Position numbers and translations under genes: made by a program
DNA from: Lachnospiraceae bacterium
GTDB taxonomy: Bacteria; Bacillota; Clostridia; Lachnospirales; Lachnospiraceae
Assembly: GCA_024403555.1 (NCBI GenBank)
Contig: JAKSRP010000013.1
Coordinates: 1 to 42,306, forward strand
Length of the DNA stretch: 42,306 nt
Direction: 5' to 3'
The notes under the pieces: generated by a model
Seen by the model: only the letters and a program-made list of their open reading frames with translations
Databases searched by the model: none
What the model was told of the DNA's origin: nothing
Shown: positions 35,809 through 38,723 of the stretch, in pieces
Layout of the letters: every line of letters begins with the position of its first letter
How positions within the stretch are numbered: position 1 is the stretch's first letter

Positions 35809-36693
35809 ATGAACTTATATCATCTTCGATATTTCATCGTGCTGGCTAAACTGGAGCACTATACGAAAGCCGCTGCCGAGCTTTCAATTACCCAGCCATC
35901 CCTAAGCCACGCAATCTCTTCTCTCGAACAGGAATTAGGCGTGAACCTGTTTGAAAAAGAAGGTAGAAACATCGTATTAACAAAGTATGGCAGAATGTTT
36001 TTAGCGGATGTGGAAAGGTCTATGGAGATTTTAGATTCAAGCATCCGACAGGTAAAAGCAGTTGGATCCGGAGAAGGCGTAATCGACCTTGGTTTCTTAA
36101 GAACCTTAGGTACTGATCTCATTCCAGAGATGATTCGCGGATATCAGGAAGAATATCCGGACAGAGTTGTTGATTTTCGCTTAAATACAGGGGTTACAGA
36201 GGATTTATTAGAAGGATTAAAGTCTAAAAAGTACGATATGGTCATCTGCTCAAAGCTTCCGAAACAGCCATCCGTGGAATTTATCCCGGTTGCTCAGCAG
36301 AAATTAGTCGTTGTTGTTCCCGAAGATCATCCATTGGCTTCTCGTAACAGCATCACATTATCTGAAACGATCCCATATCCACAGATTATCTTCTCTAAGC
36401 GAAGCGGTCTTCGCCCAGTTATTGATGAGCTTTTCGATGCCATCGGCGAATATCCGGAAACCGTTTATGAGATCAAGGAAGATCAGGTAATTGCAGGTTT
36501 TGTTTCCAACGGCTTTGGTATTGCAGTTGTACCAGATATGCCAATCTTAAACACTATGAAGATCAAGAAATTAGATATCGTAAGTCCAAACTGGCAGAGA
36601 ATCTTCTATCTTGCATTCTTAAAAGATAAGTATATCTCACCAGCAGCACAGACCTTTAAAAATTATATTATCGAACACAGTCTGTTAGAATAA
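35809..36693 (+). CDS. LysR-type transcriptional regulator, QuiR-like by context
   Basis: A 294-residue LysR regulator. The winged helix-turn-helix occupies residues 1-60 (YHLRYFIVLAKLEHYTKAAAELSITQPSLSHAISSLEQELG). The C-terminal two-lobed effector domain begins near residue 88. It is transcribed away from the TIM barrel operon, the standard arrangement of a LysR activator with its target. In Listeria a LysR protein (QuiR) responds to shikimate and switches on a gene set of the same content, so shikimate is the first effector to test. An AAGGAGG site lies 5 nt before the ATG. It is the only plus-strand protein gene that I accept in the window. Confidence 0.92.
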   Translation: MNLYHLRYFIVLAKLEHYTKAAAELSITQPSLSHAISSLEQELGVNLFEKEGRNIVLTKYGRMFLADVERSMEILDSSIRQVKAVGSGEGVIDLGFLRTLGTDLIPEMIRGYQEEYPDRVVDFRLNTGVTEDLLEGLKSKKYDMVICSKLPKQPSVEFIPVAQQKLVVVVPEDHPLASRNSITLSETIPYPQIIFSKRSGLRPVIDELFDAIGEYPETVYEIKEDQVIAGFVSNGFGIAVVPDMPILNTMKIKKLDIVSPNWQRIFYLAFLKDKYISPAAQTFKNYIIEHSLLE

Positions 36694-36712: not shown

Positions 36713-36756
36713 AAAAATCCCGAAGTTTCAATCGAAACTCCGGGATTTTTTATTAA
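36713..36756. terminator. Bidirectional terminator between the LysR and FGGY kinase genes
   Basis: Arms 36713-36729 and 36734-36750 form a long stem with one mismatch region and a 4-nt loop. A5 and T6 runs flank it on either side, so it can end both convergent transcripts. Confidence 0.88.
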
Positions 36757-36848: not shown

Positions 36849-38390
36849 CTAACAGAGTTCTTTTAATTTTGTGAAAACGTTTGTCATATCTGTCTTAATA
36901 ATGCTTTTCTGGATGCCATATAATTGTCTATATTTTTTTGTATTGCCCGCATCCGGCTCATACTCATTGGAAATTTCCAGATAATCTTCAAGCTTTTCTT
37001 TGATATTATCTACATCCTTACTTGCAAATGCACCAAACAAGCAGTTCATATTTACTGCGCCGCCTGCTTCTTTCATTGTGATCACGCGGCTGTCTAACAT
37101 ATCCGCTTTCATCTGATTCCATAAAGTATTCGCACTTCCACCTTCTGTAATCGCAATTCGGCTAAGATCTACACCTGCACTACGATACAAATCCGTAATT
37201 TCCATATAATCATATCCAATTGCTTCTAAAACTGCACGCCACATTGTATACTGGTCCGTATCAAGCGTCATATTTAAAAAGCATCCGGTCGCATTTGCCT
37301 GTTCGCCCATGCCGCCAGTTAAATACGGAAGAAAGATGGTACCATTTGCTCCAACCGGAATCTTCTTTGCCCCTTCTGTCATCACATCATAATAAGCGCC
37401 GGATTCTTCATGCTTGCATACAGAATCCTTAAACCAGCGAAGAGCAAGACCACCCGTACGAATGTAACCCCAATAAAAATACGTATCAGGAAGAGTTCCA
37501 CTGTTAAAAATTAATCCAGTGCCGTGCTTAGACAGTTCCGGAACAATTCCTTTTGTAGAAACACAAAACATTGCACAAGTTCCGGCAACATCGACCGCAT
37601 GACCAGCCTCTAAGATACCACTTCCGATCATGGACTGCATGGTATCCCCAGCGCCACCACACACAGGAGTTCCTTCCGGTACACCCGTCGCCAGAGCCAT
37701 TTCTTTAGAAAGACCGCCAACAATATCCCAAGGTTTTACGATTTTCGGCAAATAGGATGGATCAATCCCAAGGATGCCTAGCTGATTTTCATCCCATTCT
37801 TTTTTATAAACATCATAACCAAGCCCCCACCCAGACATAGCACCCCAGTCGATGAACATATCATTTGCGGACAAGCCAGCCAAATGCGCCAGCACATATG
37901 GTGCGTTATGAATGAATTTTACGCCTCGTTCCTTAAAGTTTTCATTATTTTTCAAAAACCAACGGGCAAACATAGCCGGAAACATGCAGCTTGCATCCGC
38001 ATTTCCTGTTTTTTCGCCCCAAAGATCCAAATTCATGCTGTTGATATACTGCACATCTTCTTCTGTTCGGGAATCAAGATAGTTGATGTAAGGAGTGATG
38101 GCATTCCCATTCTCATCAACACCTGCGATACCACAGATAATTCCATCCCCCATAATAGAACGAATGTTAGCTGGATCTAACCCTTTTTCTTTCATCTGAT
38201 CCGTGCAGTCTTTCATGCATTTTACGGTTAATTCAAGATATTCATCCACATCCATCTCAACCCATCCAGGATTTGGATAGTTTAATGTAGTCGGCATGCT
38301 TTTCGCTGCCACCTGATTCATATTTTCATCGCAGATTACCACTTTTACACTCTGAGTACCTGCATCAAAACCAACATAATACTTATCCAT
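36849..38390 (-). CDS. FGGY-family carbohydrate kinase behind an FMN riboswitch
   Basis: A 513-residue FGGY kinase, which phosphorylates a sugar or polyol with ATP. The N-terminal phosphate loop is GFDAGTQSVK (7-16); the catalytic Asp249 is in GGAGDT; the C-terminal ATPase half includes ITEGGSANTLWNQMKADML. It is XylB-like in general form, but substrate is not readable (xylulose, ribulose, ribitol and others are possible). The frame is open to 38426, but ATG 38390 with AAAGGAG about 9 nt upstream is the start. It is the only gene between an FMN riboswitch with its terminator and the convergent LysR gene. Confidence 0.9.
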   Translation of the reverse strand: MDKYYVGFDAGTQSVKVVICDENMNQVAAKSMPTTLNYPNPGWVEMDVDEYLELTVKCMKDCTDQMKEKGLDPANIRSIMGDGIICGIAGVDENGNAITPYINYLDSRTEEDVQYINSMNLDLWGEKTGNADASCMFPAMFARWFLKNNENFKERGVKFIHNAPYVLAHLAGLSANDMFIDWGAMSGWGLGYDVYKKEWDENQLGILGIDPSYLPKIVKPWDIVGGLSKEMALATGVPEGTPVCGGAGDTMQSMIGSGILEAGHAVDVAGTCAMFCVSTKGIVPELSKHGTGLIFNSGTLPDTYFYWGYIRTGGLALRWFKDSVCKHEESGAYYDVMTEGAKKIPVGANGTIFLPYLTGGMGEQANATGCFLNMTLDTDQYTMWRAVLEAIGYDYMEITDLYRSAGVDLSRIAITEGGSANTLWNQMKADMLDSRVITMKEAGGAVNMNCLFGAFASKDVDNIKEKLEDYLEISNEYEPDAGNTKKYRQLYGIQKSIIKTDMTNVFTKLKELC

Positions 38391-38486
38391 AAAAAAATGC
38401 TCCTTTCTTAGTATCTTCAATGACATGTTACCAATTAGAGAGCATATATTTTTTTATTTCGCGATTATTAACATTCATATAAATGA

Positions 38487-38515
38487 AAATAGCTCTGAAC
38501 TGTGATGCTCAGAGC
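38487..38515 (-). terminator. Expression-platform terminator of the FMN riboswitch
   Basis: GCTCTGA (38492-38498) pairs with TCAGAGC (38509-38515) around a 10-nt loop, followed on the minus strand by TATTTTC. It lies about 35 nt after the riboswitch aptamer and 100 nt before the kinase start, as expected for transcriptional control. Confidence 0.65.
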
Positions 38516-38549
38516 CATAAATATCATATCATAATCTTCCACGATTACT

Positions 38550-38665
38550 CTCTTCTCTCATCCAGACTATACTGTCGGTTCCGGAATCACACCGGATCAT
38601 GCCTTTCGGCTCGCGGACTCACTTACGCATACCGCCGGTCGGGAATCACACCCTGCCCTGAAGAA
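38550..38665 (-). promoter_or_regulatory. FMN riboswitch (RFN element)
   Basis: Read on the minus strand, the conserved RFN blocks occur in order: CAGGGCAGGGTG, TTCCCGACCGGCGGTA, GAGTCCGCGAGCC, a GATCCGGTG...TTCCGG hairpin, then CCGACAGTATAGTCTGGATG and GAGAAGA closing stem P1 with the 5' TTCTTC. All six arms can be drawn. It senses flavin mononucleotide. A TATAAT -10 (38687-38692) lies just upstream. The gene controlled is the FGGY kinase, not a riboflavin synthesis or transport gene. Confidence 0.95.
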
Positions 38666-38723
38666 ATATGTAATTATTATTCCTTTATTATAATACTTTA
38701 CTAATCGTGTTTTGTAAAGTCTT

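Follow-up and report, generated by a model that had tools for sequence, protein, structure and literature searches.

Flavin mononucleotide (FMN) riboswitches usually, if not by strict definition, control a known gene of riboflavin synthesis or uptake. In contig JAKSRP010000013.1 of a Lachnospiraceae bacterium (assembly GCA_024403555.1, positions 1 to 42,306 of the forward strand; this whole stretch of 42,306 nucleotides is called the window below), such a riboswitch is followed by no gene of this kind; the sole gene behind it encodes a kinase of the FGGY family of carbohydrate kinases, which raises the question of what a flavin-sensing element controls at this locus. The riboswitch association of the kinase is conserved among its orthologs, the kinase closes a rib operon in one genome, and RibB, which makes 3,4-dihydroxy-2-butanone 4-phosphate (DHBP) from ribulose 5-phosphate, has been lost in three groups of kinase bearers in which the RibH sequence is kept. 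We infer the substrate, the product and the substrate source of the kinase; our best reading, held with about even confidence, is that it phosphorylates 3,4-dihydroxy-2-butanone to DHBP, bypassing RibB.

Identification of the riboswitch-kinase unit

An earlier note on this DNA had described a complete RFN aptamer at 38550-38665 and a terminator-like platform at 38487-38515, leading into a lone FGGY kinase gene. The Rfam family RF00050 places the aptamer on the minus strand over the full model (positions 1–138; gathering threshold 66.2 bits, E = 5.3e-26; see Table 1 for coordinates), the terminator hairpin is present (–17.9 kcal/mol, z = –6.3 against dinucleotide shuffles), and the protein contains the Pfam domains FGGY_N (133.2 bits, 1.5e-38, cut-off 28.8) and FGGY_C (57.1 bits, 2.8e-15, cut-off 27), confirming the observation of an FMN riboswitch before an FGGY kinase. 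No gene lies between the riboswitch terminator and the kinase in the window. Compared with the RF00050-led units on ribDEBAH and ribU, the unit has the same aptamer and the same terminator-type platform, but it controls an FGGY kinase and no known flavin gene. Applied to this leader anatomy, the standard logic of FMN riboswitches predicts that at low FMN the aptamer would be empty, transcription would pass the terminator and the kinase would be made, and that at high FMN the terminator would form and the kinase would be off.

Conservation of the pairing and membership in the flavin regulon

In a first set of 61 genomes (60 relatives in addition to the window's own), close orthologs of the kinase were found in six, namely the window and five genomes at 69–75% identity, all six with an FMN riboswitch immediately upstream. 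Searching named genomes yielded 39 loci, comprising 34 orthologs (49–74% identity) and five distant FGGY proteins (L135-L139, 21–24% identity), which were left out as non-orthologs. Riboswitches upstream of the named orthologs were located with a covariance model built from 34 aptamers, which placed one directly upstream in 20 of the 34; Rfam scored above gathering in all 17 of these 20 loci that were scanned, the other three being the loci of G002, G004 and G003. With duplicates counted once (L101=G002, L102=G004, L103=G003, L110=G029, L119=G099, L134=G402, L128=G243), the 34 named orthologs together with those of the window, G001, G316, G346 and G270 make 39 distinct orthologs (49–75% identity). 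As the kinases of the window, G001, G316 and G346 are all riboswitch-led, the total with an FMN riboswitch directly upstream is 24 of 39, and the pairing is thus conserved in homologous loci, a point on which the earlier note had asked for evidence. Such units occur in Lachnospiraceae, Intestinibacter and a Clostridium. Their leaders measure 85–475 nucleotides and contain a terminator-like hairpin in every case (24/24), which beats all 20 dinucleotide shuffles in 21 leaders, the window's included (the exceptions are L113, L115 and L087).

The gene order in G270 is FMN riboswitch-ribD-ribE-ribBA-ribH-kinase, the kinase following ribH directly (RibB and RibH assigned by model, ribD and ribE by eye). 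The earlier note had regarded a rib gene between aptamer and kinase in relatives as speaking against its idea; G270 shows just this arrangement, yet with the kinase closing the rib operon, which makes the flavin link stronger. Each of four same-genus relatives has separate riboswitch units on the rib operon and on the kinase, and two of the four also have a riboswitch-led ribU-like gene (gene names read by eye, apart from model hits for RibB, RibH and RibF). Because 24 of 39 orthologs are riboswitch-led and one belongs to a rib operon, membership of the kinase in the FMN regulon, with a conserved flavin link, is well supported at the sequence level; the proposal that flavin status controls the kinase, with a regulatory response that would follow from the leader, gains support from the same two lines.

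RibB in kinase-bearing genomes

Models of RibH, RibB and flavokinase were run on 19 kinase genomes, and those of RibH and RibB on 23 more; since G445, G450 and G453 repeat earlier genomes, 39 distinct kinase genomes were covered. RibH is absent in five of them (the window's partial genome, G243, G427, G437 and G441). Among the 34 with RibH, RibB is intact, as judged by residue, in 15, dead or collapsed in 15, and missing in four. Nineteen of the 34 are thus without a working RibB: catalytic residues are lost in 14, the domain has collapsed in one, and the gene is absent in four.

In the 14 dead proteins, the catalytic His (position 154 of Vibrio cholerae RibB) is replaced by Phe in 12 and by Tyr in two, Arg38 (Lys in one) and Asp43 are replaced in all 14, and Glu175 has changed to Asp, Gly or Asn; 11 of the 14 retain Glu39. 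The roles of Glu175 and of the Cys among the positions compared are our assumption. According to the sections of PMC5228156 used here, Glu39, Glu41 and His154 are catalytic, activity being lost upon their mutation, and Arg38 contacts the phosphate. One of the 14, that of UBA7026, also has the middle of RibB deleted. The RibBA protein of Anaerostipes sp. 992a retains only the RibA half, and a 36-residue RibB relic lies on another contig. In four Sutterellaceae, a model search found no RibB; the order there is nrdR-like, ribD, ribE, ribH, nusB-like (in three of the four listings) and thiL-like (names by eye), with 93–155 bases and no ribBA between ribE and ribH. The usual rib gene order includes ribBA.

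The RibB-dead genomes were also searched for another RibB, and this explanation was rejected: each has one place matching PF00926, except G443 with three and G439, whose two matches are fragments of a single gene; the single place in G002 is the relic. The copy read in G443 is dead, and its other two copies have similar scores. Even though inactive, RibBA of the Anaerobutyricum group passes the cut-off of the RibB family model.

The riboswitch-kinase unit is present in all 15 genomes with a dead or collapsed RibB, in eight of the 15 with an intact RibB (seven as a unit of its own, and G270 within the rib operon) and in none of the four Sutterellaceae. The ratio of RibB to RibA divergence is 4.0 in the Anaerobutyricum clade versus 1.2 among intact proteins, the intact set being more divergent overall and the two values not strictly comparable; in close pairs, the corresponding ratios of dN are 1.9–14.7 for altered and 1.2–2.2 for intact RibB. 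On a quick tree of 33 of the 39 kinases, with placements made by eye (L111, L117, L121, L124, L130 and L132 are not in it), the loss of RibB falls in three separate places, i.e., the Anaerobutyricum clade, strain 992a and the Sutterellaceae.

RibH retains an Arg which we take to hold the phosphate of DHBP. This residue is kept in all 26 genomes aligned, 18 of them without a working RibB, and because of this, DHBP or a close analogue seems still to be used. Flavokinase (RibF) is present in 18 of the 19 kinase genomes scanned, the exception being the incomplete G000; the idea that the kinase replaces RibF was rejected on this count.

Family genomes without the kinase

As a control, 397 genomes drawn evenly from the window's family, the Lachnospiraceae, were searched. 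A kinase ortholog at 53% identity or more occurs in nine of them, the window's own counted; RibB was matched in 151 and RibH in 153. Six genomes were set aside: G005 (whose RibB is a piece at the end of a contig), G167 (without RibB, its RibH lying at the start of a contig), G120 (RibB, no RibH), G087 and G377 (RibH at 9.1e-4 and 2.2e-4, respectively, no RibB) and G143 (fragments of both). The 148 genomes evaluable for RibB and RibH comprise 141 without and seven with the kinase. All 141 kinase-free genomes have RibB at 258–301 bits, and one of the seven kinase bearers has a dead RibB (G346, 222 bits). Residues were read in 61 of the 141 (28 top-scoring, 20 lowest-scoring and 13 from the middle), the remaining genomes being judged by score; the ten positions compared are kept in the 61, save in G232, which is cut at the start. 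The pattern to be looked for in a protein with RibB function, presence where RibB is dead or missing and RibH is kept, was found in 19 of 34 kinase genomes versus none of the 141 kinase-free ones.

The kinase as a separate FGGY subfamily

The motif GAGD with Asp249, which we take to be the FGGY catalytic Asp of the conserved GxGD, is invariant across 29 orthologs and, in a comparison with 24 other FGGY loci, lines up with GxGD in 23. At the position where these other loci have QMHG (21 of 24) or QMAG (two), the window kinase has GDGIICG; it thus lacks GQMHG, presumably the substrate motif of xylulokinases. Among its 12 matches to curated NCBIfam models, none reaches the subfamily cut-off, all being far below (XylB 217 of 380 bits, gluconokinase 177 of 649, AI-2 kinase 142 of 528, GlpK 135 of 590, and ribulokinase 98 of 428). 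Because of this motif and these scores, the kinase is, as far as its sequence tells, a subfamily of its own. Searches of solved structures gave generic FGGY matches only, with XylB (2itm) among the best and the kinase for autoinducer-2 (AI-2) among the matches.

Proposed function

The product we propose, DHBP, is 1-deoxy-L-erythrulose 4-phosphate. The kinase would use ATP on the terminal hydroxyl of 3,4-dihydroxy-2-butanone (1-deoxy-L-erythrulose, a 1-deoxytetrulose) and form DHBP in one step, which would then serve lumazine synthase (RibH) as its four-carbon substrate and allow the xylene ring of riboflavin to be made without RibB. A related 1-deoxy-ketose may be the substrate instead. In genomes with an intact RibB, the role of the kinase would be to rescue DHBP that has lost its phosphate, by salvage or repair; given a steady outside or internal source of 3,4-dihydroxy-2-butanone, decay or loss of RibB could have followed. 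Internally, this compound might come from a thiamine-diphosphate enzyme that couples pyruvate with glycolaldehyde. The choice of substrate draws on the pattern of RibB loss and on the analogy with Escherichia coli XylB acting on 1-deoxyxylulose: in the parts of PMC3424233 used here, pyruvate dehydrogenase is described to make 1-deoxyketoses, and the FGGY kinase XylB to phosphorylate 1-deoxy-D-xylulose.

Relative to RibB, the proposed product is the same, but the protein belongs to another family, and the starting compound would be a four-carbon ketose without phosphate, used by a kinase, in place of the ribulose 5-phosphate used by the synthase. XylB is an FGGY kinase that phosphorylates a 1-deoxyketose and is among the best structure matches, but the XylB model falls well short of its cut-off, and GDGIICG stands where most neighbours compared have QMHG. 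LsrK, the AI-2 kinase (PDB 5ya0), is likewise an FGGY enzyme, but its model is missed by an even wider gap; the substrate of LsrK is a small, partly deoxygenated ketone. As a statement about the family, namely that it consists of 3,4-dihydroxy-2-butanone kinases, provides a second, RibB-independent route to DHBP, let Anaerobutyricum and relatives, an Anaerostipes, and Mesosutterella and relatives lose RibB three times, and was overlooked partly since inactive RibBA matches the model, the proposal is put forward with slightly less than even confidence.

Several observations weigh against it. RibB is intact in 15 of the 34 RibH-positive kinase genomes, and 14 of the 39 orthologs lack an adjacent FMN riboswitch, the four Sutterellaceae among them (L111, with only 353 bases upstream, L116, L119, L120-L126, L128, L129, L131 and L134; Rfam at gathering found no riboswitch in any of the seven scanned, L111, L116, L119, L120, L124, L125 and L134). 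The altered RibB half is under purifying selection (dN/dS 0.03–0.13 in the six pairs scorable), and that of the A. hallii pair, at 0.033, evolves no faster than intact pairs (0.03–0.04), suggesting that this half is not in free decay and may have a structural role or an altered chemistry. The largest of the three groups of RibB loss is one clade and perhaps one event. The association in the unbiased family sample rests on one genome (1/7 versus 0/141), the other losses were seen in genomes chosen for carrying the kinase, so that their rate is not unbiased, and the kinase-free control covers the window's family, with none for the Sutterellaceae; one kinase-free genome, G143, with fragments only of RibB and RibH, could be a case of decay without the kinase. 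As the family sample alone is thin, the weight of the RibB association lies with the three separate places of loss on the tree. The window's own genome is a partial metagenome-assembled genome in which no rib operon was found. Finally, three relatives at about 50% identity adjoin genes for a RuBisCO-like protein and a HAD phosphatase (L129:9049-14106, L131:9046-13549 and L128:8030-11533), and the genomes of two of them lack both RibH and RibB; judged by this context, the RuBisCO-linked kinases are to be read as serving a non-riboflavin role, or the family as broader than one substrate.

The earlier note had suggested ribulose, ribitol or a ribityl product as the substrate, none of which is favoured by these data. 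A D-ribulokinase would form ribulose 5-phosphate from D-ribulose and feed RibB with its substrate at low FMN; the FGGY family includes ribulokinases and xylulokinases, and the best curated models are XylB and gluconokinase, if both below cut-off. Feeding ribulose needs RibB, however, and 19 of the 34 genomes have a dead or collapsed RibB or none, the 15 dead or collapsed cases all keeping the riboswitch-kinase unit, and the curated ribulokinase models are far from their cut-offs; a ribulokinase is therefore unlikely. Salvage of a ribityl or flavin breakdown product (ribitol, a ribose-derived ketose, 5-amino-6-ribitylaminouracil or riboflavin) would agree with FMN control and with the report that Clostridium scindens, a gut member of the Lachnospiraceae, degrades riboflavin (preprint PMC12934955). 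Its fin genes share with the kinase unit the response to flavin, predicted in the case of the kinase, and the gut Lachnospiraceae background, but they are induced by high riboflavin and, in the portions of the main text of PMC12934955 used here, include an aldolase, oxidoreductases and a RibF homolog, FGGY proteins not being mentioned. As RibF is present in nearly all kinase genomes scanned and the RibB pattern would be left unexplained, we consider salvage improbable.

A substrate closer to the proposed one is 4,5-dihydroxy-2,3-pentanedione (DPD), the AI-2 precursor, or a similar dicarbonyl, with the altered RibB half or another enzyme finishing the conversion to DHBP. Phosphorylation would give the 5-phosphate, a presumed intermediate in RibB catalysis. 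The purifying selection on the altered RibB half and its retention of Glu39 in 11 of 14 cases would fit, as would the AI-2 kinase being an FGGY enzyme among the structure matches and the regulator genes, both of one cluster, adjoining two of the relatives at about 50% identity (L129 and L131 have a DeoR/LsrR-like regulator; that of L129, the one scanned, scores 188 bits with the DeoR and 103 bits with the LsrR model, both below cut-off). Yet with RibB collapsed or absent in 992a and the four Sutterellaceae and cut down in UBA7026, another enzyme would be needed there, the AI-2 kinase model is not nearly reached, and the shared intermediate is presumed; DPD is a decidedly unlikely substrate. 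Alternatively, the loss of RibB might have nothing to do with the kinase, DHBP or the xylene ring coming from an unknown enzyme or non-enzymatically from diacetyl and a sugar kinase being under FMN control for some other reason. RibB retention in 15 of 34 kinase genomes and the relatives that stand beside a RuBisCO-like protein or cluster with two other FGGY kinases point that way; the Arg for the DHBP phosphate in all 26 aligned RibH proteins, the kinase at the end of the rib operon of G270 and the lack of RibB loss among 141 kinase-free family genomes speak against it, and we regard it as doubtful. That the riboswitch is a meaningless remnant of a lost rib gene captured before the kinase, as the earlier note had considered, agrees with current annotation, which gives the kinase no catalytic link to flavins, but is already contradicted by conservation, i.e., by a pairing as widespread as 24 of 39 orthologs with a terminator-like hairpin in every leader, and appears extremely improbable.

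Features of the locus and flavin genes of the genome

Table 1 Features of the riboswitch-kinase locus in the window
Feature	Position	Strand	Basis or remark
FMN riboswitch aptamer (RFN element)	38546..38669	-	Rfam RF00050, 114.1 bits
Intrinsic terminator hairpin, expression platform	38489..38518	-	12 pairs, tail TTTCATTTAT
Promoter-like site TTTACA-17-TATTAT just upstream of the aptamer	38690..38718	-	consensus scan
FGGY-family kinase, 513 aa	36849..38390	-	Pfam FGGY_N/FGGY_C
Shine-Dalgarno AAAGGAG of the kinase	38400..38406	-	read in sequence
Terminator-like hairpin behind the kinase	36713..36750	-	17 pairs

Across the region, the number of promoter-like matches (8) is that expected by chance (8.1), position being the sole support for the site upstream of the aptamer; the same consensus scan, with hits at chance level, found no minus-strand promoter-like site between aptamer and kinase. 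The kinase open reading frame was listed from 38426, but its start is probably the ATG at 38390, because a good Shine-Dalgarno sequence precedes this codon and the alignment of 29 orthologs begins there. A hairpin covering the Shine-Dalgarno sequence does not stand out from shuffles (z = –1.7) and is not claimed. As the next gene, a LysR gene at 35809-36693, is on the opposite strand (convergent) and a terminator-like hairpin lies behind the kinase, the kinase looks as if it stands alone, in line with the earlier description of a lone gene.

In the window's whole genome, which is 86% complete, the RibH, flavokinase and RibB models found no match. The earlier statement that no flavin gene lies in the window thus holds genome-wide for these three proteins; as to RibU, the scan did not cover every open reading frame of the window. 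A second FMN riboswitch in the same genome precedes a gene for a 198-aa protein, which we take, by its likeness to other switch-led genes, to be the riboflavin transporter RibU.

Further observations concern neighbouring genes. Behind the kinase, the segment 31602-36693 of the window contains the LysR gene and genes for a TIM-barrel isomerase-like protein, a BaiCD-like flavoenzyme (below cut-off) and a shikimate-dehydrogenase-like protein (by eye), in an order kept in L070, L101 and L102; this block may encode a quinate/shikimate-type pathway. In Intestinibacter bartlettii, a flavodoxin-like gene (by eye; L127:9213-9644) lies just upstream of the riboswitch-kinase unit, and the same cluster (c83) precedes the unit in L130. 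The ortholog of Pseudoramibacter alactolyticus (L126:6970-14796) is located between two other FGGY kinase genes and near a gene for a glycerol-1-phosphate-dehydrogenase-like protein, along with a TIM-barrel protein and an SDR (by eye), and has no FMN riboswitch. The RuBisCO-like protein of L129 comes closest to the MtnW-type enolase (367 bits against a cut-off of 409), and the RuBisCO-like/HAD/kinase loci look like an undescribed pathway.

Other riboswitch-led genes were seen as well. In four same-genus genomes (L076, L079, L081 and L082), the rib operon continues beyond ribH with a HAD-like gene (by eye), a candidate pyrimidine phosphatase gene of the riboflavin pathway. In G003 (L077:1138-2750), an FMN riboswitch is followed by a ribU-like gene and an extra flavokinase gene, the second PF01687 hit of that genome. 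A weaker FMN riboswitch match in G029 (L085:6380-6492; 66.9 bits with model R1) precedes an open reading frame resembling a MATE-type transporter (by eye), a possible flavin exporter.

Implications

Literature searches found no publication linking an FMN riboswitch or RFN element with an FGGY or other carbohydrate kinase, and nothing on a riboflavin ribBA operon of Eubacterium hallii. In the parts of PMC7360928 used here, hallii or Anaerobutyricum is not mentioned, and the riboflavin need of A. hallii is not settled by them. Among the table lines considered of the vitamin phenotype rules in PMC6593275, there is one B2 prototroph variant, and it requires RibB.

The pathway to riboflavin is regarded as solved. 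If the proposed function is true, a kinase of the FGGY family would be added to the FMN regulon, a link found nowhere in print in the searches made, and a RibB-free route to DHBP would matter for RibB inhibitors. Should RibB be dead in butyrate producers such as Anaerobutyricum hallii, these predicted riboflavin producers would either need riboflavin from outside or have a second route to DHBP, and either answer would change models of vitamin exchange in the gut.

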